From Ruminococcus flavefaciens (GTDB taxonomy: Bacteria; Bacillota; Clostridia; Oscillospirales; Ruminococcaceae), in NCBI GenBank assembly GCA_023667045.1, contig JAMPAU010000001.1, forward strand, positions 1 through 64,000: a stretch of DNA of 64,000 bases, given 5' to 3'. Within the stretch, counting starts at the first letter, position 1. Every line of letters starts with the position of its first letter. Shown in pieces: positions 6,770-50,367 of this stretch. The notes under the pieces were generated by a model. It had not been told where the DNA came from and ran no database searches. It saw only the letters and a program-made list of their open reading frames with translations. Made by a program: the position numbers and the translations under genes.

Positions 6770-7843
6770 CTGAATAAGCAGACAAGATTTATAGTTTCTG
6801 CACTCTTTATAGTGATAATTCTGCTTGCCGTTGCTATCAGAAGATTCTACTCAGATACGACCACAAGCACAAAAAACAATAATTTTCAGACGGATATTAT
6901 CAGCAGTCTTGAAACAGACGATTCGGGAAACAGAATCTTCAAAGACAACAGCGGTCTTTCCGGAATAATAGACAGCAGTGACAGAATTATTGTTGCTCCC
7001 GAATGGCACGAGCTTAAATTCACAAGCAATAATATGTGCATAGCACGTCTAAGGCTTGACGACAAACTACTCACAGGCTGTATAGACTATGAGGGAAATA
7101 TAACAGTGCCTTTAATATACAACAGCATAGAACGTCATCAGGAAGACGATTTTATATTCTATACTGCCGTTTCCGGCGATAATTCATGCGTGATATATGA
7201 CAGCCGTTTTGTGCCGTGCTTTAAAAGGTCATGGAAAAGCTACAGTCTGTCAGACGAAGAAATAACTTTAAAAACCGATAACGGCACTTATGAATATGCC
7301 ATAAATAATGATGGCTTCCGTCTGAAATCCGCTGAAATAGTCGGAAAAACTCTCGACCGCAGTTATGTTCTGAGCGTATACAGCAGAATACTTCTATCAA
7401 AGCTGAGTGTTTCCATGCTTGAAAAAATGTCCGATACCGCCGGAAAGTATATTGAATACGCCTACACAGGCAACGACGAAATACTTGAAAATATAACAAA
7501 CAGCAATCGCTCTGGTTTTTCACAGCTTTTTCCAGAAGACCATGTGATACTCTCAAAGAAACTGCTGAATATTTCCGAAATATTCATATATTCAGTACGG
7601 TCAGACGACGACACACCGCACTATGCAGTATCGGTCACTGCTGACACGGAAATTGAATATTCCGACGAAACAAGCGGAAAAAATACTCTCCGTGACGAGT
7701 ACACAGCGGTTATAGAGTTCAGCGGATATTGTGAAAACGACCTCACGGCAGTCTCCGGAAAATTCAATCAAGACGAGCCGGAATATCCTAATCCGGAAGA
7801 AAAAACAGAAACTACTTCCGTCAGTGAAGAAGAAAAAGAATAA
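6770..7843 (+). CDS. Membrane-anchored WG-repeat protein, probable CTG start
   Basis: Read from CTG at 6770 the protein has 357 residues. It begins with a short basic segment (NKQTR) and one strong membrane helix ending at AIRRFYSD. The first conventional start, GTG at 6812, would cut that helix in half. AGGGGG lies 9 nt before the CTG, and no other start with a Shine-Dalgarno site exists. Residues 50-150 contain WG-repeat-like units (GLSGIIDSSDRIIVAPEW and LLTGCIDYEGNITVPLIY). The rest is a polar extracytoplasmic domain with no catalytic motif. It lies 17 nt after the glycosyltransferase, which suggests a joint envelope role. Confidence 0.7.
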   Translation: MNKQTRFIVSALFIVIILLAVAIRRFYSDTTTSTKNNNFQTDIISSLETDDSGNRIFKDNSGLSGIIDSSDRIIVAPEWHELKFTSNNMCIARLRLDDKLLTGCIDYEGNITVPLIYNSIERHQEDDFIFYTAVSGDNSCVIYDSRFVPCFKRSWKSYSLSDEEITLKTDNGTYEYAINNDGFRLKSAEIVGKTLDRSYVLSVYSRILLSKLSVSMLEKMSDTAGKYIEYAYTGNDEILENITNSNRSGFSQLFPEDHVILSKKLLNISEIFIYSVRSDDDTPHYAVSVTADTEIEYSDETSGKNTLRDEYTAVIEFSGYCENDLTAVSGKFNQDEPEYPNPEEKTETTSVSEEEKE

Positions 7844-7872
7844 ATTTTTTAAATAAAAAGGAGTTTTTTGAA

Positions 7873-8373
7873 ATGTCAAAAAAAGTAGCAGTAATAATGG
7901 GCAGTAACAGTGATTTTCCTGTTGTGAAGTCTGCCCTCACAGAGCTTAAAAAATACGGCGTTGAGTTTGAGTGCCGTGTAATGTCAGCACACCGCACACC
8001 TGTTGAGGCTTGCGAGTTTGCAGACAAGGCAAAGAAAAACGGTTTCGGCGTTATCATATGTGCGGCAGGTATGGCTGCACACCTCGCCGGAGTAGTTGCC
8101 GGACACACCACACTGCCTGTTATTGCCATTCCCATGAAGTCCGCCGTACTTGAGGGCATGGACGCTCTTTTATCGTCCGTCATGATGCCCCCCGGAGTAC
8201 CTGTCGCTACAGTAGGAATAAACGGTGCAAAGAATGCCGGCATTCTCGCAGTGCAGATGTTGGCTATTTCTGACGACGAACTCGCACAGAAACTCGCCGA
8301 CGAAAAAATAAAAATGGCTGAGGGTGTACGTCAGAAAGACGCTGAACTTCAAGAGGAAATAAAATGTCTTTAA
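7873..8373 (+). CDS. purE: N5-carboxyaminoimidazole ribonucleotide mutase PurE
   Basis: Protein of 166 residues, the usual length of class I PurE. GSNSDF near the start and SAHRTP bind the ribonucleotide phosphate; AAHLAG carries the active-site histidine; PPGVPVATVGI is the conserved C-terminal core. The enzyme converts N5-CAIR to CAIR and normally works with PurK, which is not in the window. AAAAGGAG precedes the ATG. It overlaps the next small gene by 10 nt, so the two are translationally coupled. Confidence 0.95.
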   Translation: MSKKVAVIMGSNSDFPVVKSALTELKKYGVEFECRVMSAHRTPVEACEFADKAKKNGFGVIICAAGMAAHLAGVVAGHTTLPVIAIPMKSAVLEGMDALLSSVMMPPGVPVATVGINGAKNAGILAVQMLAISDDELAQKLADEKIKMAEGVRQKDAELQEEIKCL

Positions 8374-8570
8374 GAGGCAAGAAAGAAACACGCTTTATCG
8401 TCAAGGAAGCACAGAAACTCGGTATGGGTGCGGTACAGGTTATCGTTGATACTACCACAGGCGTTAATTATCTTAATACCGTCGGCGGTTCGTCACAGGG
8501 ACTTACCATAATGCGTGACGAAAACGACAAAATAATTGTTGACGATGTAAGCAAGATTTCAGAAGAATAA
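8364..8570 (+). CDS. DUF6440-family small protein 1
   Basis: Protein of 68 residues overlapping the end of purE. It has the pattern RFIVKEAQ...VIVDTTTGVNYL...GLTIM.D.., typical of short DUF6440-type beta-rich proteins. It is a paralogue of the next gene. No function is known for the family; the start ATG at 8364 is preceded by AGAGGAA inside purE. Confidence 0.75.
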   Translation: MSLRGKKETRFIVKEAQKLGMGAVQVIVDTTTGVNYLNTVGGSSQGLTIMRDENDKIIVDDVSKISEE

Positions 8571-8585
8571 CAGGAGGATTCAAAT

Positions 8586-8792
8586 ATGGGACTTTTTGAC
8601 AAAGATGAAAAGAAAAAAGGCAAACGCTTTGTTGTCAAGGAGGAGCAGACTCTCGCTATGGGTGCGGTACAGATTATCGTTGATAATGCCACAGGCGTTA
8701 ACTATATGAACGTTCTGGGCGGTGCTATGAACGGACTCACTCCCTTGCTTGACAGCAACGGAAACGTAATCGTTGACAAGAAAGAAAAATAA
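8586..8792 (+). CDS. DUF6440-family small protein 2
   Basis: Protein of 68 residues, about half identical to its upstream neighbour (RFVVKEEQ, IIVDNATGVNYM, GLTPLLDSNGN). It has a more basic N-terminus (DKDEKKKGKR). CAGGAGG lies upstream of the ATG. The tandem pair between purE and purC is a local duplication with unknown role. A small hairpin (GTTCAC 8805-8810 with GTGAAC 8817-8822) follows it. Confidence 0.78.
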   Translation: MGLFDKDEKKKGKRFVVKEEQTLAMGAVQIIVDNATGVNYMNVLGGAMNGLTPLLDSNGNVIVDKKEK

Positions 8793-8854
8793 AATGCTTT
8801 ACCTGTTCACAATGATGTGAACTTGTATATATATTTCACAGGAGGAATTTTAAA

Positions 8855-9574
8855 ATGGAAAACATTGTTAAAAAGGAACAGCTCTACGAGGGCAAGGCTA
8901 AGAAAGTCTATGCTACAAACGACCCCGACCTCGTAATCGTTGATTACAAGGACGACGCTACAGCTTTCAACGGAGAAAAGAAAGGCACAATCTCCGGCAA
9001 GGGCGTTGTAAACAACAGAATGACTAACTTCATGTTCAAGATGCTCGAAAAGGAAGGCGTTCCGACACATCTCGTTGAGGAAATCAGCGACCGTGAAACT
9101 ATCGTAAAGAAAGTTTCTATCGTACCGCTTGAAGTTATCGTAAGAAACGTTGCAGCAGGTTCATTCTCAAAGAGAATGGGCGTTGAGGAAGGAAAACAGC
9201 TCCTCACACCTATCCTTGAATTCAGCTACAAAAACGACGACCTCGGCGACCCCTTTATAAATGACTATTACGCTCTCGCTCTTGGTCTTGCTACTAAAGA
9301 AGAAATCGACACAATCGCTAAGTATGCATTCAAGGTAAATGAATTTATGCTTAACTTCTTCAAGGGTCTTAACATCGACCTTATAGATTTTAAGATTGAG
9401 TTTGGCAAGACTTCCGACGGAACTATTATTCTCGCTGACGAAATCTCACCCGATACCTGTCGTTTCTGGGACAGCACAACCCACGAAAAACTCGACAAGG
9501 ACCGTTTCCGTCGTGATATGGGCGGTGTTGAAGAAGCTTATCAGGAAATCATGAAAAGATTAATGGGAGAATAA
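8855..9574 (+). CDS. purC: SAICAR synthetase PurC
   Basis: Protein of 239 residues, full length. It condenses CAIR with aspartate using ATP to give SAICAR. Conserved features include YEGKAKKVY (ATP loop), [18 protein letters not shown], and the metal-binding [13 protein letters not shown] near residue 190. An AGGAGG site is 9 nt before the ATG. It is followed by the PurF homologue after 4 nt, clearly the same transcript. Confidence 0.96.
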
Positions 9575-9578
9575 TTCT

Positions 9579-11003
9579 ATGGGTGGATTTTTTGGTGTAG
9601 CTTCCAAAAACGACTGTGTAACAGATGTTTTTTTCGGAACAGACTACCATTCACATTTAGGCACACGCCGTGGCGGTATGACCGCTTATTCTGAGGAGCT
9701 TGGCTTTCAGAGAAGTATTCACAGCATTGAAAACTCTCCGTTTAGAACAAAATTCGAGAACGACGTTGTAAAAATGCGTGGCAAGCTCTGCATAGGCAGT
9801 ATCAGCGACACAGACCCTCAGCCTATACTTGTCCGCTCAAAACTCGGTCTTTATGCCGTTTGTTCAGTAGGCATAATAAGAAACGCTGAGGCTCTTGTTG
9901 ACGAACTTCTTGAAAACGGCTGTGCAAACTTTGAGACAATGAGTAGCGGAAGTATAAACTCCGGCGACTTAATCGGTGCTTTGATTGCACAGAAAGATTC
10001 TTTTGTTGAGGGCATTCGCTATGCACAGCAGAAAATTGAGGGTACAATGTCCTTGATTATCCTTACAAAAGACTGCATTATAGGTGCAAGAGATGAATAC
10101 GGCAGACTTCCTATTGTAATAGGAAAAAGAAGTGACGGTTTCTGTCTTTCAACCGAGTCTTTCGCATTCCAGAAATTAGGCTATCAGACATACAAGGAAC
10201 TCACCGCCGGCGAAATAGTCCGTATTGATTCGGACGGCTGTGAAACTATCAGTGAGGGCGACCCCTCAAAAATGAAGATATGCACTTTCATGTGGACATA
10301 TTACGGCTACCCGACCGCTGTATATGAGGGCGTAAACGTTGAAGTCATGCGTACACGCAACGGCGAAATCATGGCTGAAAACGACATAAAAGCCGGTAAA
10401 CTTCCGGACGTTGACTATGTATGCGGTATTCCTGATTCGGGAACTCCTCACGCTATCGGTTACGCAAACAGAAGTGGTATTCCTTTCGCAAGACCGTTTA
10501 TTAAGTATACTCCCACATGGCCACGCAGTTTCATGCCTACTAATCAGAGCATGAGAAATCAGGTTGCAAAAATGAAACTCATTCCCGTGCATGAACTCAT
10601 CGAGGGAAAGAAACTTCTCTTTGTAGATGACAGCATAGTACGTGGCACTCAGATGCGTGAGACTGTAGAGTTTCTTTATGAAAACGGTGCAAAGGAAGTG
10701 CATATGCGTTCTGCCTGTCCGCCTATTATGTATGGCTGTAAGTATCTTAACTTCTCAAGAAGCCACTCTGAACTTGAACTTATCGCAAGACAGATTATTG
10801 ACGAATTTGAGGGTGCAGAGGGCGTTAAGTACCTTGCTGAATACAGCGATACTAATACTGAACGTGGCAAGCGTATGCGTGACGAAATATGCAGAAGATT
10901 AAAGCTCACATCACTTGAATTTCAGTCTCTCGAAGGCAAGGTTAAGGCTGTAGGTCTGCCGGAGTGCAACCTCTGCACTTACTGCTGGAGCGGAAACGAA
11001 TAA
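9579..11003 (+). CDS. purF: Amidophosphoribosyltransferase (PurF) homologue lacking the N-terminal Cys nucleophile
   Basis: Protein of 474 residues with glutaminase-like and phosphoribosyltransferase domains. The PRPP loop LLFVDDSIVRGT is intact, as is GIPDSGTPHAIGYA. Canonical PurF begins MCGVFGI, where Cys becomes residue 1 and attacks glutamine; here the start is MGGFFGVASKNDC, so that cysteine is glycine. RGGM and GTRRGG show the rest of the glutaminase fold is kept. Cysteines in KICTFMW, SACPPIMYGC and CNLCTYC sit where Bacillus-type PurF binds an Fe-S cluster. The protein may use free ammonia or have another role. A normal PurF may exist elsewhere. Confidence 0.85.
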   Translation: MGGFFGVASKNDCVTDVFFGTDYHSHLGTRRGGMTAYSEELGFQRSIHSIENSPFRTKFENDVVKMRGKLCIGSISDTDPQPILVRSKLGLYAVCSVGIIRNAEALVDELLENGCANFETMSSGSINSGDLIGALIAQKDSFVEGIRYAQQKIEGTMSLIILTKDCIIGARDEYGRLPIVIGKRSDGFCLSTESFAFQKLGYQTYKELTAGEIVRIDSDGCETISEGDPSKMKICTFMWTYYGYPTAVYEGVNVEVMRTRNGEIMAENDIKAGKLPDVDYVCGIPDSGTPHAIGYANRSGIPFARPFIKYTPTWPRSFMPTNQSMRNQVAKMKLIPVHELIEGKKLLFVDDSIVRGTQMRETVEFLYENGAKEVHMRSACPPIMYGCKYLNFSRSHSELELIARQIIDEFEGAEGVKYLAEYSDTNTERGKRMRDEICRRLKLTSLEFQSLEGKVKAVGLPECNLCTYCWSGNE

Positions 11004-11016
11004 TATAAAAATTCAG

Positions 11017-11046
11017 AACCTGTTTTCAGACACGTGAAAACAGGTT
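11017..11046 (+). terminator. Hairpin terminator after the PurF homologue
   Basis: A perfect 12-bp stem (11017-11028 with 11035-11046) and 6-nt loop. The arm itself ends in TT and a short T/A-rich tail follows. It separates the early purine genes from the purM transcription unit. Confidence 0.7.
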
Positions 11047-11065
11047 TTGAAATAATATTACAAGA

Positions 11066-11094
11066 TTGACAACAAATCAAAATACTGGTATAAT
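11066..11094 (+). promoter_or_regulatory. Perfect consensus promoter of the purM operon
   Basis: TTGACA (11066-11071), 17-nt spacer, TATAAT (11089-11094). The leader of about 70 nt contains GAACGG and CCGTTC arms (about 11106 and 11144) flanking an A/T-rich centre. No known purine riboswitch or PurR box was recognised. All genes to 23086 could be read from here. Confidence 0.8.
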
Positions 11095-11170
11095 TAAATC
11101 AGAAAGAACGGATATTTTTTTGTATTAATATTTATGAAAAACCGTTCACGAATATAAGGAGGAAATCCCA

Positions 11171-12208
11171 ATGAATAACAGTTTTTCAAAAAGCTATGAA
11201 AAAGCCGGCGTTGATGTTACAGCAGGCTATAAGGCTGTTGAACTCATGAAAAAACACATTGCACGTACCATGACAGCAGGTGCTATCTCCGGTATCGGCG
11301 GTTTCGGCGGTCTCTTTGAACTCGATATGACAGGCATCTCAAAGCCCGTGCTTGTTTCCGGCACTGACGGCGTAGGAACTAAAATCAAAATCGCATTCAT
11401 CATGGACAAGCACGATACAGTCGGCATTGACTGTGTGGCTATGTGCGTTAACGACATCATCTGCTGTGGTGCTAAACCTCAGTTTTTCCTTGACTATATC
11501 GCCTGTGGCAAAAACTACCCCGAAAAAATCGCCGAGATAGTTTCTGGTGTGGCAGAGGGTTGCGTACAGGCTGGCTGTGCATTAATCGGCGGTGAAACTG
11601 CTGAACACCCCGGACTTATGCCCCTTGATGAATACGACCTCGCAGGTTTTTCAGTGGGCGTTGTTGACAAGGACAAGATTTTAAAGCCCGAAACCCAAAA
11701 AGCCGGAGACGTTCTCATAGCTATAAAGTCAAGCGGTGTACACTCAAACGGTTTTTCACTTGTAAGAAAAGTCTTTGAGGTAAACGAGCAGAATCTTGCT
11801 GTACATTTTGACGATTTAGGAACAACTCTAGGTGAATGTCTGCTTACTCCTACAAGAATTTATGTAAAGCCTATAATGAATCTCATTAACTCTGTAAACG
11901 TAAAGGCTATCTCACATATAACCGGAGGCGGTTTCTATGAGAATATCCCACGTGTACTTCCGGCAGGAATTTCTGCAAAAATTGAAAGAAACGCTGTACA
12001 GGTGCTTCCAATATTCGACCTTATCAAGCGTACCGGCGATATACCGGAAAGAGATATGTTTAATACTTTCAATATGGGCGTTGGTATGATAGTATCCGTT
12101 GACAAGAACGACGCTGACAAGGCTATTGAAGTACTAAAGGCTTCCGGAGAAGACGCATACGTACTCGGCGAACTCGTTGAATCAGAAGACGGCGTTATTA
12201 TCTGTTAA
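11171..12208 (+). CDS. purM: Phosphoribosylformylglycinamidine cyclo-ligase PurM
   Basis: Protein of 345 residues, usual length. It closes FGAM to AIR using ATP. GIGGFGG and SGTDGVGTK lie in the ATP-binding region; [10 protein letters not shown] and [11 protein letters not shown] are typical of the PurM/PurL superfamily. AGGAGG precedes the ATG. Its TAA overlaps the ATG of the expansin gene by one base, so that odd neighbour is translationally coupled to purM. Confidence 0.96.
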
Positions 12209-13056
12209 TGAAAAAAATTATAATATCACTTGCTGTCATGCTGGGAGTGTCAGCACTTCCGGCAATGTCGGCAGGCGATTCTCTTGATGTTAATTCCGAC
12301 GGTCGTGTTGACTGCTTTGATTTGGTGCTTGCCCGTCAGAATAATACGACCTCTGAGGAACTCACTGCCATAAATGATTTTATTCTCGGACGTGAAACAA
12401 ACTCAAATCCGGAATATGCCGTTGACGAATCATGTATACTTGAACCAAAAGGCACTATACATACCGGAGATGGAACTTTTTACGGCGGAGGCTATGAGAG
12501 CGGTTGTGCCATGCTCGACCCAGTATCTAAAGACTACTGGATAGTGGCAATGAATCTCCCCGACTATAACAACGCACAGCTTGCCGGAGCATATATTGAA
12601 GTAACAGGAGAACTCGGTACTATAAATATGCTTGTCACCGACCTGCTCCCAGAGGGCAAAAAGGGCGACCTCGATTTATACACAGACGCTTTTCCGCTTA
12701 TCGCTCCGGTTGAAAAGGGACGTGTTCCAGTATCATGGAAAATAATCCCTCTTGACAGTGCAGAAAACGATCCTGTATCATATAAATATAAAGAGGGTAC
12801 TACTGAATACTGGTGCGGTATTCAGGTACGCAACCACCGCTATCCTGTCACAAGGCTGGAGTACCTTGACGAAAACGGCGAATTTATCGAGATAGAAAGA
12901 AAACAATATAATTACTTTGAGTCTGACAAAATGGGAAAAGGTCCTTTTACGTTCCGGATTACCGATATTTACGGACAGATGATTATTGACGAAAATATTC
13001 CCCTCTCATACGACGACACAGAAATAATACAGGGAAACGTACAGTTTCCGGAGTAA
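12208..13056 (+). CDS. Secreted expansin with N-terminal dockerin-like module
   Basis: Protein of 282 residues. Residues 1-22 are a signal peptide (cleavage after AMSA). Residues 25-62 form one dockerin F-hand (D27, N29, D31, D38 in DVNSDGRVDCFDLVLARQ) plus a helix; a second calcium loop is absent. Residues 85-180 are a double-psi beta-barrel with VTDLLPEG and the GDLDL aspartate (D156) matching the catalytic Asp of Bacillus EXLX1. Residues 185-282 match the CBM63 domain (YWCGIQVRNHRYPV, ending GNVQFPE). Expansins loosen cellulose-containing walls without hydrolysis. The module suggests attachment to a cohesin. It lies inside the purine operon between purM and purN. Confidence 0.88.
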   Translation: MKKIIISLAVMLGVSALPAMSAGDSLDVNSDGRVDCFDLVLARQNNTTSEELTAINDFILGRETNSNPEYAVDESCILEPKGTIHTGDGTFYGGGYESGCAMLDPVSKDYWIVAMNLPDYNNAQLAGAYIEVTGELGTINMLVTDLLPEGKKGDLDLYTDAFPLIAPVEKGRVPVSWKIIPLDSAENDPVSYKYKEGTTEYWCGIQVRNHRYPVTRLEYLDENGEFIEIERKQYNYFESDKMGKGPFTFRITDIYGQMIIDENIPLSYDDTEIIQGNVQFPE

Positions 13057-13058
13057 AT

Positions 13059-13523
13059 ATGAAAGTAAGTATAATTGATATAGTATGGTCGGTTGTTTCC
13101 ATGATAGTGCTTGCTGTATCTTTTCTTATGGGACATCTTATATATGGTCTTCTGATTATATACGCCATGATGACCGGTATATTTTTTGCACACATATTCA
13201 AAATACGCAAAGCTACCGAAAAAAGCGTGGCAGTATACGGCGAAATAACTGACTACCACAAGGAAAAAACAGGAAAAGGCTACTGCCCTGTTGTAAAGTA
13301 CACTACTGAGGAAGGTCGGGAAATAACTTCTATATATACGGTTGTTTCAAAAAAACAGGAATTTGAAACAGGCACAGAAGTAACAGTATGTTACGACCCC
13401 GAAAATCCAATGTCATTCTACTTTATGGGTCGTGAAAACGAACTTACAGATACATACTATCGTTTTATAATAACAGGAGGCATAATTTCAGTCATACTGC
13501 TGATAATTTCAGCAATATTATAA
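13059..13523 (+). CDS. DUF3592-type membrane protein
   Basis: Protein of 154 residues. Two membrane helices at residues 8-48, a soluble beta-rich domain (about 55-120) with GKGYCPVVKYTTEEGREI and EVTVCYDPENP, and a C-terminal membrane helix (133-153). This arrangement, including a YDPENP-type turn, is typical of DUF3592. It starts two nt after the expansin stop. Function unknown. Confidence 0.75.
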   Translation: MKVSIIDIVWSVVSMIVLAVSFLMGHLIYGLLIIYAMMTGIFFAHIFKIRKATEKSVAVYGEITDYHKEKTGKGYCPVVKYTTEEGREITSIYTVVSKKQEFETGTEVTVCYDPENPMSFYFMGRENELTDTYYRFIITGGIISVILLIISAIL

Positions 13524-13536
13524 AGGAGTGATTATA

Positions 13537-13857
13537 ATGAAGTGTTCATATTGCGGAGCAGAAACAAACTCCTCGCAGTGCGAATACTGCAACGCTCCCA
13601 CAGGACAGCCAAAAACAAGCATACCCCGTAAGCCTTACAAGAAAATTTCACGGAAAAGCAAGTCAACGGCAATTACATTATGCTGTCTCGGATTTTTCGG
13701 ATTGAGCGGTTTGCACCGCTTTTATGCCGGAAAAATCAGCACGGGCATAATATGGCTTCTTACCGACGGCTGTTTCGGGATAGGAACAATCATGGATTTG
13801 GTTTCTATCATCACAAATAAATTTTATGATGACAAGGGCAGATGCATATCAAGATGA
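13537..13857 (+). CDS. TM2-domain protein with zinc-ribbon N-terminus, copy 1
   Basis: Protein of 106 residues from the ATG at 13537; an in-frame GTG at 13528 overlaps the AAAGGAG site and is unlikely. CSYCGAE and CEYCNA form a two-knuckle zinc ribbon. Residues 45-100 are the TM2 domain, two membrane helices flanking a short turn with GLHRFYAGK and GIGTIMDL. TM2 proteins are membrane proteins of uncertain role. First of three consecutive paralogues. Confidence 0.85.
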   Translation: MKCSYCGAETNSSQCEYCNAPTGQPKTSIPRKPYKKISRKSKSTAITLCCLGFFGLSGLHRFYAGKISTGIIWLLTDGCFGIGTIMDLVSIITNKFYDDKGRCISR

Positions 13858-13897
13858 TAAAAAAATAAATATTTTTATATAAAAGGAGTGAATATAC

Positions 13898-14287
13898 ATG
13901 AAATGTCCATATTGTGGAGCTGAAACACGCTATGCAAAATGCGAATTTTGTGATGCAATAATAGACCAGTCAATCTCAGAGACAGTCAATGAAGCACTTC
14001 AGGATGTGACACGCAATGTAACACAGAATATCGTACAGAATATCACAGCAAATCAAAACCCTACAGAAGAAATCTCTAAAAAGAGTAAATCCACAACTAT
14101 AATACTCTGCTGTCTCGGATTTTTTGCACTGGGCGGTTTCCACCGTTTCTATACCGGAAAAATCGGTACTGGCATACTGTGGTTTCTTACACTTGGGTGT
14201 TTCGGTATAGGTACTATAATAGACCTTGTTTCAATAATTATAGGAAAATTCTATGACAGCAAGGAAAAACGTATAGCCAAATGGTAA
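13898..14287 (+). CDS. TM2-domain protein with zinc-ribbon N-terminus, copy 2
   Basis: Protein of 129 residues. CPYCGAE and CEFCDA form the zinc ribbon; a longer polar linker (residues 25-60, rich in Gln, Asn and Thr) precedes the TM2 domain with GGFHRFYTGK and GIGTIIDL. AAAGGAG lies before the ATG. It is the best-preserved intact member of the triplet. Confidence 0.85.
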   Translation: MKCPYCGAETRYAKCEFCDAIIDQSISETVNEALQDVTRNVTQNIVQNITANQNPTEEISKKSKSTTIILCCLGFFALGGFHRFYTGKIGTGILWFLTLGCFGIGTIIDLVSIIIGKFYDSKEKRIAKW

Positions 14288-14317
14288 AAAAAGATATTCA
14301 TGCAAGGAGTGATATAA

Positions 14318-14716
14318 GTGAAATGTCCATACTGCGGAGCAGAAACAACAAGCCACAGGTGTGAATACTGCGATTCCGACCTGAGCTATCTGTACACGAA
14401 CCACACAACTATAAACGATGAGTTTTCAAAAGATATAAATAATATCCCTTATGGCTACCGGAATACAGGCAATCCTCAGACACAGGCGAATGCTTCAAAT
14501 AAAAACAAAAACGTTGCACTTATATTATGTATAATCGGATTTTTCGGAGTAAACGGACTGCACCGCTTTTATACCGGTCATATCCTTACTGGTCTGTTGT
14601 AGCTGTTTACAGACGGATTATTCGGTATAGGCACGATTATCGACCTAATAATGATTCTCTCAGACAACTTCAAAGATAACAAACAATTTAAACTTTTATC
14701 AGAGGTGAAACAATGA
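14318..14716 (+). pseudogene. TM2-domain protein copy 3, interrupted by an amber stop
   Basis: From GTG at 14318 (after AAGGAG) the frame runs 94 residues through the zinc ribbon (CPYCGAE, CEYCDS) and first half of the TM2 domain, then meets TAG at 14600-14602. The same frame continues as LFTDGLFGIGTIIDLIMILS and ends at TGA 14714-14716, overlapping purN. Intact copies have Trp (TGG) at the stop, so one G-to-A change explains it. The reading frame beyond is clean, which suggests a very recent lesion or rare read-through. Confidence 0.85.
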
Positions 14717-15339
14717 AAAACATAGTTGTTCTCGTTTCGGGCGGAGGAACAAACCTACAGGCACTTATAGACGCTGAAAAATCCGGCATTATAAAAAACG
14801 GAAAAATCACGTGTGTCATTTCCTCAAAGCCGGACGTTTACGCACTCGAAAGAGCAAAGAATAATGACATTCCGGCAAGAGTTATTCCACGCAAGGAGTA
14901 CTCCGACAGCGTGACATACAGTCAGGCAATTCTTAACGCACTCCGTGAAGAAAAGGCAGACCTTGTTGTGCTTGCCGGATTCATGACTATCCTTGACGAG
15001 TGCGTTACAAAAGAATATGCCTATAAAATAATAAACGTCCACCCCGCACTTATACCGTCGTTTTGCGGAGAGGGTTACTATGGACTTAAAGTACATGAGG
15101 CAGTCCTTGAATACGGAGTTAAGGTGTCCGGTGCGACTATACACTTTGTCAACGAAAAAGCAGACGCTGGTGCAATAATATTGCAAGGTGTTGTTGACGT
15201 TAATAAAGACGACACGCCGGAAATACTCCAGAGACGTATCATGGAGAATGTCGAATGGAAGTTACTGCCGGAGGCTGTATCGTTATTCTGTCAAGACAGA
15301 ATAGAAATAGTTGACGGAAAGGCTTACGTGACAGAATGA
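14713..15339 (+). CDS. purN: Phosphoribosylglycinamide formyltransferase PurN
   Basis: Protein of 208 residues. It transfers the formyl group of 10-formyl-THF to GAR. SGGGTNLQAL binds the GAR phosphate; NVHPALIPSF carries the catalytic Asn and His; the catalytic Asp lies in KADAGAIIL. AGAGGTG precedes the ATG, which overlaps the stop of the broken TM2 gene. Its end overlaps the next lipoprotein gene by 4 nt. Confidence 0.96.
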   Translation: MKNIVVLVSGGGTNLQALIDAEKSGIIKNGKITCVISSKPDVYALERAKNNDIPARVIPRKEYSDSVTYSQAILNALREEKADLVVLAGFMTILDECVTKEYAYKIINVHPALIPSFCGEGYYGLKVHEAVLEYGVKVSGATIHFVNEKADAGAIILQGVVDVNKDDTPEILQRRIMENVEWKLLPEAVSLFCQDRIEIVDGKAYVTE

Positions 15340-16188: not shown

Positions 16189-16680
16189 GTGATTACAGAC
16201 ATAAAGCAAGGTTCATACGGCACTGAGGGTAAGTTATATTCTGAAATATTCAATACTGAAATCGAAGTCATGATTAAAGATGGTGCAAGCGTTGAGTACG
16301 CACAGAAATGTGCCGAACATTTCAACAGTCTCAACAGCAAAATGGTTGAAACTATCTGCAAAGGTGCTAAAGCCTACTGTCTTGACTTCATGGAAATTGC
16401 AGATGAAGACTGGGAAGAATATTTGACAATACCCATTAATGCAGATACTCCACCACTTGAAATGCTGAAATGTTTCAGACCGAATACCCTCATAATCGAA
16501 AAAACCGAAGACCTAAACAAAATCGGCTATCAGCTTGAATGTTCATGTGAATGGGAAATAGAACACGGCATGGAAATTGACATACTCGATGATAAAGTTG
16601 TTTATCTCAGTTCATTCAATGGCTATTCGCCGTGGCGTAAATACAATGACAACCAATACAATTATATAAATCAAATATAA
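16189..16680 (+). CDS. DUF6985-like protein
   Basis: Protein of 163 residues from GTG at 16189 after AAGGAG. The N-terminal half looks like the DUF6985 pattern (GKLYSEIFNTEIEVMI), and the C-terminal part has CEWEIEHGMEIDILDDKVVYL followed by FNGYSPW. No signal peptide or membrane segment. Relatives occur as single small genes, sometimes near polymorphic toxin loci, but no toxin is visible here. Function unknown. Confidence 0.65.
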   Translation: MITDIKQGSYGTEGKLYSEIFNTEIEVMIKDGASVEYAQKCAEHFNSLNSKMVETICKGAKAYCLDFMEIADEDWEEYLTIPINADTPPLEMLKCFRPNTLIIEKTEDLNKIGYQLECSCEWEIEHGMEIDILDDKVVYLSSFNGYSPWRKYNDNQYNYINQI

Positions 16681-16693
16681 AGGAGAAATTACA

Positions 16694-17407
16694 ATGAAAA
16701 AACTTGATATTGCACAGGAGCTTTCCACAAACGCATACCCCGGCAGAGGTATAATCATAGGCAGATGTGAGTGCGGTAAATACGCCGTTACAGCATACTT
16801 CATCATGGGCAGAAGCGAAAACAGCCGTAACCGTGTTTTCGTTGAGGAAGGCAGAGGCATACGCACAGAGGCTTTTGACCCGTCCAAACTCATCGACCCA
16901 CATCTTATTATATACGCTCCGGTGCGTGTTCTCGGTAACAAGCTTATCGTCACAAACGGCGACCAGACAGACACTATTTACGACCTCATGGACAAACAGT
17001 ACACATTCGAGCAGTCGCTCCGCACACGTGAGTTTGAGGACGACGCACCAAATTACACTCCTCGCATTTCTGGTATAATGCACTTTGAAGACAACGGCTT
17101 TAACTATGCTATGTCAATCCTCAAGAGCAACAACGGCAACCCCGATTCTTGTTTAAGGCACACTTTCACATATACAAATCCCGTTGCTGGCGAGGGACAT
17201 TTCATTCATACATACATGGGCGACGGAAACCCACTCCCGAGCTTTGAGGGCGAACCTAAGCTTATTGCCATAAAGGGCGGTATAGACGAGTTTACTGACA
17301 CTCTCTGGAACAGTCTCAATGAAGACAACAAAGTATCGCTTTTTGTACGCTATGTAAATCTTGAAACAGGCGAAGAGGAAACAAGAATAGTAAACAAAAA
17401 CAAGTAA
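16694..17407 (+). CDS. purO: IMP cyclohydrolase, archaeal PurO type
   Basis: Protein of 237 residues. It matches the PurO family (IMP_cyclohyd), not the N-terminal domain of PurH. Conserved stretches include YPGRGIIIG, IMGRSENSRNRVFVEE, TEAFDPSKLIDP, TNGDQTDTIYD and PNYTPRISGI. It closes FAICAR to IMP, the last step. With the separate formyltransferase at 18949 it replaces bifunctional PurH. AAAGGAG precedes the ATG. Confidence 0.92.
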   Translation: MKKLDIAQELSTNAYPGRGIIIGRCECGKYAVTAYFIMGRSENSRNRVFVEEGRGIRTEAFDPSKLIDPHLIIYAPVRVLGNKLIVTNGDQTDTIYDLMDKQYTFEQSLRTREFEDDAPNYTPRISGIMHFEDNGFNYAMSILKSNNGNPDSCLRHTFTYTNPVAGEGHFIHTYMGDGNPLPSFEGEPKLIAIKGGIDEFTDTLWNSLNEDNKVSLFVRYVNLETGEEETRIVNKNK

Positions 17408-17805: not shown

Positions 17806-18255
17806 ATGGCAGAGGTTGTAAAATGCCCTAACTGCAATGCACAGATTCATGCAGTACCAAATACAAACGTCCTGAAGTGCGATTACTGTGACACAGAAAT
17901 AATTATAGACAACAATATTCAGAATCTTTCAGCACAGACAAACGGCATCACAGAAAACTATGAGGAAAAAAAGAAAAAATGGGACAAATCATTTTTTATA
18001 CATCTGATAATACAGGCTGTACTTTCGGCTCTTTTCGCAATCTTTATAGAAACATCATCAGTTGTTGCATTGATTATGTTTCTTGCTTCCGCTGTTTACT
18101 CTTTTGTATTGCCGTTTTACCTGCTCAAAGACAAACCGCTTTTATCACAGTCGCAGAATAACAGAAAGTTTCTTGAATTTATAAAAATTTATCCTGCATT
18201 TGCCGGAGTGTTCTGGGGCGGTATAATACTGGTTACTGTTCTTGTGAATATATGA
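17806..18255 (+). CDS. Zinc-ribbon membrane protein
   Basis: Protein of 149 residues. CPNCNAQ and CDYCDTE form a zinc ribbon at residues 6-30. A charged linker is followed by three predicted membrane helices (about 62-82, 84-105, 128-148). AAAGGAGATG lies before the ATG. It has the same ribbon-plus-membrane design as the TM2 genes but no TM2 motif. Confidence 0.68.
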   Translation: MAEVVKCPNCNAQIHAVPNTNVLKCDYCDTEIIIDNNIQNLSAQTNGITENYEEKKKKWDKSFFIHLIIQAVLSALFAIFIETSSVVALIMFLASAVYSFVLPFYLLKDKPLLSQSQNNRKFLEFIKIYPAFAGVFWGGIILVTVLVNI

Positions 18256-18948: not shown

Positions 18949-20130
18949 ATGTCAAATGAAATGCAGTTAAAATACGGCTGTAACCCCAATCAGAAACCGT
19001 CAAGGGTTTACATGGCTGACGGCTCTGAACTTCCTATAGAGGTTCTCTGCGGTAAACCCGGCTATATAAATCTCCTCGACGCATTCAACGGCTATCAGCT
19101 TGTCAAGGAACTCAAAAAGGCTACCGGCGTATGTGCGGCTACATCTTTCAAGCACGTTTCACCGGCTGGTGCTGCTATCGGCAGACCTCTTTCTGACGAC
19201 CTCAAAAAAATTTACTGGGTTGACGACTTAGGCGAACTCACTCCCCTTGCAAGTGCCTATGCAAGAGCAAGAGGTGCTGACAGAATGTCATCATATGGCG
19301 ACTTTATAGCACTCTCCGACAAGGTGGACGTTTGCACAGCTAAAATGATTCAGCGTGAAGTATCGGACGGTATCATTGCCCCCGACTATGACGAAGAAGC
19401 TCTTGAAATCCTCAAGTCCAAGAGAAAAGGCACTTACTGCATTCTCAAGATAGACGAAAATTACAAGCCTGCTCCGATTGAAACCAAACAGGTTTATGGT
19501 GTATCTTTTGAACAGGGCAGAAACGAACTCGACATTAACAAGGAACTCCTCGCTAATGTCGTTACTGAAAACAAGGACATTCCGGCTGACAAGCTCGACG
19601 ACTTAATGATTTCGCTTATCACACTTAAATATACACAGTCCAACTCCGTATGCTATGTCAAGGACGGTCAGGCTATCGGTATCGGAGCAGGTCAGCAGTC
19701 AAGAATCCACTGCACACGCCTTGCCGGACAAAAGGCTGACAACTGGTGGCTGAGACAATCCCCTAAGGTTATGGGACTTGATTTTGTTGACGGTATTCGC
19801 CGTGCAGACCGTGACAACGCTATAGATGTTTACATCGGAGACGAGTACGAAGATGTTCTCCGTGAGGGCGAGTGGCAGAAGATTTTCAAGACAAAACCGG
19901 AAGTCTTCACAGTTGAGGAGAAAAAGGCATGGCTTGCAAAGAATACAGGCGTTTGCCTCGGCTCTGACGCATTCTTCCCGTTCGGCGACAATATCGAACG
20001 TGCCAAGAAGTCTGGCGTTGAGTACATCGCTGAACCCGGTGGCTCTATCCGTGACGATAACGTTATTGAAACTTGCAACAAGTACAATATCGCTATGGCG
20101 TTCACAGGAATAAGACTTTTCCACCACTGA
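18949..20130 (+). CDS. AICAR transformylase, monofunctional (PurH C-terminal domain only)
   Basis: Protein of 393 residues that corresponds only to the formyltransferase part of PurH. The catalytic Lys-His pair is in SFKHVSPAGAA; KYTQSNSVCYVKDGQAIGIGAGQQSR and DAFFPFGD are conserved substrate-binding segments. The N-terminal methylglyoxal-synthase-like cyclohydrolase domain of bacterial PurH is missing. The partner cyclohydrolase is PurO at 16694. Such stand-alone enzymes have been called PurV in archaea. AAGGAGG precedes the ATG. Confidence 0.92.
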   Translation: MSNEMQLKYGCNPNQKPSRVYMADGSELPIEVLCGKPGYINLLDAFNGYQLVKELKKATGVCAATSFKHVSPAGAAIGRPLSDDLKKIYWVDDLGELTPLASAYARARGADRMSSYGDFIALSDKVDVCTAKMIQREVSDGIIAPDYDEEALEILKSKRKGTYCILKIDENYKPAPIETKQVYGVSFEQGRNELDINKELLANVVTENKDIPADKLDDLMISLITLKYTQSNSVCYVKDGQAIGIGAGQQSRIHCTRLAGQKADNWWLRQSPKVMGLDFVDGIRRADRDNAIDVYIGDEYEDVLREGEWQKIFKTKPEVFTVEEKKAWLAKNTGVCLGSDAFFPFGDNIERAKKSGVEYIAEPGGSIRDDNVIETCNKYNIAMAFTGIRLFHH

Positions 20131-50040: not shown

Positions 50041-50367
50041 TTATTTCGCCTCCTTGGATAAATTTACGGGGGCGGAGAAACAACTCTCCTCTGGGACCTC
50101 ACACGTTTCCGTGTGTTTCATGCATTATCTGACAAAAAAACCGAAAAACAACATAATGTTTTCCGGTAATCAGAATGCAAGCACAAAAATAGCGTAGTCG
50201 GCACACCTGCATGGTGCAGACCAAAAAAGCACTAACTGTGTTCATTATCCCAATCGCCCGGTTTGAAATCGGACATACTCCGCAGAAATTACCCGACACA
50301 CCGCCGGCAACCTTCTGTTTCCTCGCATATCTTCTCGCAGTCTAGTATACTTACTGTACACCCAACG
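50041..50367 (-). promoter_or_regulatory. Structured leader of the S10 operon
   Basis: About 325 nt between the promoter and rpsJ with no gene. On the minus strand it contains a hairpin near 50199-50222 (GTCTGCAC with GTGCCGAC-type arms), an intrinsic terminator (50133-50165), a CACACG/CGTGTG stem (50100-50115) and a GGAGA/TCTCC stem (50074-50089) next to the ribosome binding site. This is the arrangement of an attenuated leader; the ligand could be L4 or another r-protein. Confidence 0.7.
50133..50165 (-). terminator. Leader attenuator of the S10 operon
   Basis: On the minus strand CCGGAAAACA pairs with TGTTTTTCGG across a short loop and is followed at once by seven T residues. It lies about 95 nt before rpsJ. 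Confidence 0.72.

Follow-up and report, generated by a model that had tools for sequence, protein, structure and literature searches.

Why does a gene for a plant-wall-loosening protein stand among purine biosynthesis genes, and can the single calcium loop near the protein's N terminus still act as a docking tag? Both questions are raised by a stretch of Ruminococcus flavefaciens DNA (64,000 nucleotides, here called the window; GCA_023667045.1, contig JAMPAU010000001.1, positions 1 to 64,000), in which the initial annotation had described a dockerin-expansin gene translationally coupled to purM inside the purine operon. The expansin and its immediate neighbors are as follows.

11171 to 12208, forward strand: purM (TIGR00878, 444.9 bits)
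12208 to 13056, forward strand: EXLX1-family expansin of 282 aa, with a signal region and an N-terminal one-loop dockerin-type module (open reading frame, ATG start)
12208 to 12279, forward strand: signal peptide region, residues 1 to 24 (judged by eye)
12466 to 13050, forward strand: two-domain expansin part (full-length NF041144 match)
13059 to 13523, forward strand: DUF3592 gene, the usual downstream neighbor (in 40 of 50 comparable loci)
14713 to 15339, forward strand: purN (TIGR00639, 197.7 bits)

The expansin has both of its domains, as had been claimed. NCBIfam expansin_EXLX1 (NF041144) scores 238.8 bits, passing the curated cutoff of 100, with profile positions 1 to 194 of 194 covered by protein residues 87 to 281, and alignment to Bacillus subtilis YoaJ (EXLX1, structure 2bh0) gives 150.2 bits over residues 84 to 282. 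The further claim that its key residues match EXLX1 is mostly, not wholly, right: among the YoaJ positions that we take to matter for expansin function, T12, D71, D82, K119, W126, and Y157 are retained as T90, D145, D156, K195, W202, and Y234, but T14, Y73, and W125 have become Y92, L147, and Y201. The family is presumably marked by wall loosening that involves no hydrolysis and by a conserved Asp equivalent to YoaJ D82 together with an aromatic surface on D2, and here D82, W126, and Y157 are kept and W125 is Tyr. YoaJ thus resembles the window protein in its whole two-domain expansin with D71 and D82, and differs at the three replaced positions and, we assume, in having no dockerin. A profile search of this genome up to an E value of 1 returned this one expansin match.

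The N-terminal module divides into two parts.

12286 to 12321, forward strand: single calcium-loop segment DVNSDGRVDCFD, residues 27 to 38 (loop pattern and alignment)
12322 to 12399, forward strand: rest of the module, residues 39 to 64, comprising LVLARQ and then the loop-less, helix-like EELTAINDFILGR (alignment; helices predicted from dockerin homology)

The loop, which spans D27 to D38, is dockerin-like and stands alone, confirming the initial reading of one clear calcium loop. The pattern of a second loop occurs in none of the 76 aligned pur-locus rows, the window included (L047, L085, and L102, with no start under the start rule, are not among the 76). The distance from the loop end to Phe58 is 17 to 23 residues in these rows; it is 27 in L099 and 31 in L118. 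Three copies from the genus that lie away from the pur locus do have a second loop segment, in genomes G028 (L118/L143), G061 (L147, in which it is degenerate), and G102 (L151), as does L099, from a record labeled Ruminococcus sp. The window module therefore lacks the two calcium-binding F-hand repeats that characterize type I dockerins, and it has the single calcium repeat that characterizes the group-2 short dockerins of R. flavefaciens FD-1.

Whether such a module is a dockerin at all was left in doubt by the profile search. Pfam Dockerin_1 scores 14.4 bits, below its cutoff of 22.9 bits, so that formally there is no profile match, the outcome that the initial annotation had named as counting against a dockerin; the ligand positions of the single loop are nonetheless retained. 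The low score would suit a module that is a relic, in which cohesin binding was destroyed when the second loop was lost, leaving a free, secreted expansin whose remaining loop serves local folding only. One-loop forms also recur, as if the second loop were easily lost: among 17 readable expansins from other genera, inspection by eye counted 6 with a single loop, and these have no pur neighbors (L179, with its late start, is outside the 17, and the N-terminal part of L149 was unread). For the same reason, relocation to the pur locus is not supported as a general cause of loop loss.

Conservation within the module is concentrated on the loop. Across the 76 rows, Asp occupies loop positions 1 and 12 without exception and position 5 in 72 rows (Asn or Ser in the other 4), position 9 is always Asp, Asn, Ser, or Thr, and position 3 is mixed. 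Beyond the loop, Arg43 is found in 74 rows, L52 in 66, F or Y at 58 in 75, and L60 in 73. Mean entropy at the five ligand positions is 0.63 bits, as against 1.87 bits in the rest of the module, a difference that a mere relic would not lead one to expect; the corresponding values are 1.75 bits for the linker, 2.33 bits for the signal region, and 0.36 bits for the expansin part. Estimates of dN/dS (Nei-Gojobori), which are rough because dS is near saturation, are 0.20, 0.10, 0.07, and 0.11 for the module in four clades, 0.16, 0.11, and 0.14 for the linker where computable, and 0.02 to 0.05 for the expansin part. Judged from these alignments, selection for the loop ligands is clear, and the remainder of the module is under selection at most as strong as that on the linker, a point on the side of a relic.

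The closest published counterparts of the module bear directly on its function. Group-2 short dockerins of FD-1 have one recognized calcium repeat (PMC2930009), have been called truncated derivatives of group 4 (PMC5429695), and are reported to bind the ScaE and ScaH cohesins (PMC5301203); a single loop is therefore not by itself dead. The window module, compared with their published description, shares the single repeat and differs in its placement, since the FD-1 modules form protein C termini and this one is N-terminal. Given this precedent and the guarded ligand positions, we regard the relic interpretation as rather unlikely, and prefer to view the module as a docking tag that is reduced in length yet still functional and would bind one Ca2+.

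Potential partners for such a tag, which the initial annotation had proposed to search for, are present: the same genome holds 12 cohesin matches, 10 of them above cutoff, and 86 dockerin matches. The window loop resembles repeats of FDxVxxR type in other dockerins that the same genome encodes. Similar loops are found there in a rhamnogalacturonan lyase with a two-loop N-terminal dockerin (L192) and in a CE2-type esterase (L189, 1354 to 3063), whose N-terminal one-loop module has the reversed order, with the loop-less, helix-like part preceding the loop. Whether the presence of the expansin tracks that of a cellulosome offered no contrast, cohesin matches occurring in 124 of 125 genomes of the genus.

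Dockerin-bearing expansins are already known. CclEXL1 (Clocl_1862) of Clostridium clariflavum is a published cellulosomal dockerin-expansin. Like the window protein, it carries its dockerin at the N terminus, ahead of a two-domain expansin, and comes from a host that has cohesins; its dockerin, however, is termed type I and was examined by ELISA against scaffoldins (PMC4788839), whereas the window protein has one loop and its gene lies beside purM. Ruminococcus is among the main bacterial sources of rumen expansin-like proteins, and the bacterial ones carry dockerin-like domains, in an account whose available text does not discuss genome place or loop number (PMC12632131). None of the papers on the genome and dockerins of FD-1 (PMC2721979, PMC2930009, and PMC5301203) uses the word "expansin" in its main text, and the term "half-dockerin" occurs in PMC8063739. 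In the open-licence PMC literature, we found no paper that combines expansin with purine biosynthesis, operon, and cellulosome, none that combines expansin with Ruminococcus and purM, and no report of an expansin beside purM across a genus of fiber degraders. What is new is thus the one-loop tag and the genus-wide place among purine genes.

That place is stable. Expansin matches occur in 98 of the 125 genomes of the genus, 110 matches in total, and were assigned to the pur locus when the same strand carried purM no more than 3 kb upstream or purN no more than 4 kb downstream. By this rule 86 matches have both genes nearby, 4 have purM only, 2 have purN only, and 18 have neither, and 92 of the 98 expansin-bearing genomes have an expansin at the pur locus. 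Since most expansin-bearing relatives keep the place, the arrangement reported in the initial annotation is no assembly oddity. Among loci fetched by similarity, purM and/or purN stands beside the expansin in 78 of 80, the exceptions being L099 and L118. The laboratory isolates R. flavefaciens 007c and ATCC 19208 are among those that carry the locus (L093 and L115). Beyond the genus, 18 expansins scored above cutoff in the family (397 genomes sampled, members of the genus included), and none of the 18 has pur genes within about 1.5 kb per side, some of these flanks being cut by contig ends.

The 18 matches outside the pur locus include 10 paralogues of 523 to 560 aa without a dockerin recognizable by eye; the other 8 are a G106 copy cut by a contig end, short copies in G028, G061, G089, and G102, and three fragments. 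The paralogues (L140 to L142, L145, L146, L148, L150, L153, L156, and L157) constitute a second kind of expansin, with a common N-terminal region.

Twenty-seven genomes of the genus lack an expansin, 24 of which have purM and/or purN, and the loci of 20 of these were read (all except G037, G095, G113, and G124). Fifteen of the 20 keep the DUF3592 gene, four others keep TM2 genes, and one (L124) has neither. A C-terminal expansin fragment remains in L121, and a weak C-terminal expansin match remains in L155 (G106). In G102, the purM-purN gap (L152) contains, in place of the expansin, a 264-aa open reading frame that by eye is phage-type lysozyme-like.

The history of gain and loss was traced on a purM+purN tree of 100 of 106 candidate rows (76 with and 24 without expansin), six rows lacking a long enough purM match. 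This was a quick tree with many weak forks, its root chosen manually among rows lacking an expansin at the pur locus, such that L132, L144, L152, and L158, which have no expansin there, stand opposite all other rows. At least 15 changes of presence are needed on it, a pattern that can be read as a single gain followed by about 14 losses, with the number of gains uncertain because it depends on the chosen root. In the expansin-domain tree, the 36 pur-locus rows do not form one clade in the best free topology, the backbone of which is weak, and a single clade of these rows is not rejected (p-AU, 0.394). This tree replaced a first one that was set aside when long branches met, and was built without 12 rows: seven long paralogues plus L149, L176, L178, L179, and L182. 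Two of the 12, L176 and L182, come from other genera and have one loop.

So much turnover would also be expected if the purM-purN interval simply tolerated inserts and the expansin had been inherited there neutrally, its expression unrelated to purines or growth, a situation compatible with a functional docking tag. The interval also contains DUF3592, TM2, and further unrelated genes, and the neighbors of the expansin put its constancy in proportion. Among 50 loci holding both purE and purH, an unrelated upstream gene (at 6812) is present in 42, nearly as steady, like the DUF3592 gene, as the expansin, which is in all 50 by construction because the loci were fetched by it; the steadiness of the expansin is therefore high but not unique. 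Several other inserts, however, turn over while the carriers of the expansin retain its place: TM2 genes occur in 4 of the 50 loci each, the gene at 15336 in 2, that at 17407 in 2, that at 17806 in 9, and that at 16189 in 13. Together with the transcriptional features described below, this leaves neutral inheritance of the place a serious contender, to which we give somewhat less than an even chance. The DUF3592 gene was considered as an obligate partner and rejected, as it persists in loci that have no expansin. Three adjacent TM2-domain genes with cysteine-pair starts lie at 13528 to 14602 of the window.

The surrounding cluster is one of purine biosynthesis: purE (TIGR01162), purC (TIGR00081), purM, and purN all score above NCBIfam cutoffs, as does a formyltransferase at 18949 (PRK07106), and an IMP cyclohydrolase-like gene lies at 16694 to 17407. 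The gene called purF scores 188.8 bits against a cutoff of 350 and is therefore a divergent relative. The junctions around purM contain three features that bear on how the expansin is expressed.

11017 to 11046, no strand assigned: 12-pair inverted repeat between purF and purM (by eye, retained in L040 to L044 and L050)
11066 to 11094, forward strand: candidate sigma-A-type promoter between purF and purM, TTGACA-17-TATAAT with a TG preceding the second hexamer (perfect match to consensus)
12206 to 12210, forward strand: TAATG stop-start overlap, in which the purM TAA (12206 to 12208) shares its last base with the expansin ATG

The one-base overlap is as first described, and the six best-matching relatives (L040 to L044 and L050) share it as TGATG, so it is not peculiar to one assembly. 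Among 78 rows scored, 7 have the overlap, 68 have a called start and a gap of 6 to 1060 nt between purM and the expansin, and 3 (L065, L099, and L118) have no purM in the locus. Translational coupling to purM, as the initial annotation proposed, is plausible in the window, where the ribosome-site energy of the expansin, -2.0 kcal/mol, is the weakest of 11 genes (the other ten range from -4.5 to -11.8 kcal/mol). The overlap is not, however, the usual arrangement across the genus; the six overlap-bearing relatives have somewhat better sites (-4.3 to -6.4 kcal/mol), indicating that the weak site is the window's own, and many of the gapped loci have good sites.

Co-transcription with purM would fit the gene order. 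The gene is on the same strand as the pur genes and between them, and the overlap leaves no space for a terminator in the window, all as expected of a member of a purine operon. Terminator-like sites occur in 10 of 62 purM-expansin gaps, against 5.8 expected in shuffled sequences, and thus no consistent terminator precedes the expansin gene, a point against an expression wholly unrelated to purines. The initial annotation had allowed that separate transcription from a promoter of its own would undo the operon reading; a perfect promoter match does exist nearby, but it lies upstream of purM and not of the expansin, so that the two genes could share a transcript. A promoter scan gave 55 promoter-like sites compared with 28.8 in shuffles, and the purF-purM site is the only one to match at 12 of 12 positions; it is equally perfect in L044 and is absent from L040 to L043 and L050. 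This site suggests a possible separate transcription unit, and the simplest reading of the sequence would be that purM and the expansin share a transcript, one that in the window may be separate from purE-purC-purF. Promoter-like matches at 10 of 12 positions in a few long purM-expansin gaps (L051, L053, L057, and L066) count against such sharing. An 11 of 12 match inside the expansin gene (12752 to 12781) could drive the downstream DUF3592 gene. An inverted repeat, GAACGG...CCGTTC, follows the purF-purM promoter match within 11066 to 11160, and this promoter segment, considered as a repeat element, has one copy in the genome.

The explanation that we favor, if by a modest measure, is that the locus encodes a secreted accessory expansin of cellulosome type with a functional one-loop tag, transcribed with purM. 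The expansin part would loosen cellulose-matrix contacts, and the tag would attach it to a cohesin of the cell surface or scaffold. The gene may have arrived between purM and purN early in the main radiation of the genus, with inheritance in place and loss from several lineages thereafter. Transcription together with purM and, in the window, coupling of translation through the stop-start overlap would make expression follow biosynthetic growth and not cellulose induction. A stronger version, in which the module is a docking class distinct from FD-1 group 2 that fixes the expansin to a particular cohesin, and in which wiring to the purine transcript sets expression by biosynthetic growth rate instead of cellulose induction, we consider unlikely.

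The 76 aligned modules form a natural set of one-loop, dockerin-type variants that retain the calcium ligands, and with two-loop homologues in the genus and family as contrast, they offer a test of the minimal dockerin for binding. Whether accessory cellulosome proteins can fall under housekeeping control could likewise be tested simply at this locus. If the wiring to the purine transcript is real, the cell would have a simple means of holding the amount of wall opener in fixed proportion to the number of growing cells.

That wall loosening is itself tied directly, in function, to purine metabolism appears very improbable. The conserved neighborhood is the sole point in favor of such a tie; we know of no purine role of expansins, and the two dozen genomes with pur genes and no expansin argue against one. 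A riboswitch or other known structured RNA at the locus was considered and dismissed, as positions 7700 to 14800 have no Rfam match up to an E value of 1, a result that also weighs against the tie. The sole Rfam match in the window at gathering score is an S10-Clostridia ribosomal protein leader (RF03136), just above that score, at 50254 to 50331 on the reverse strand.
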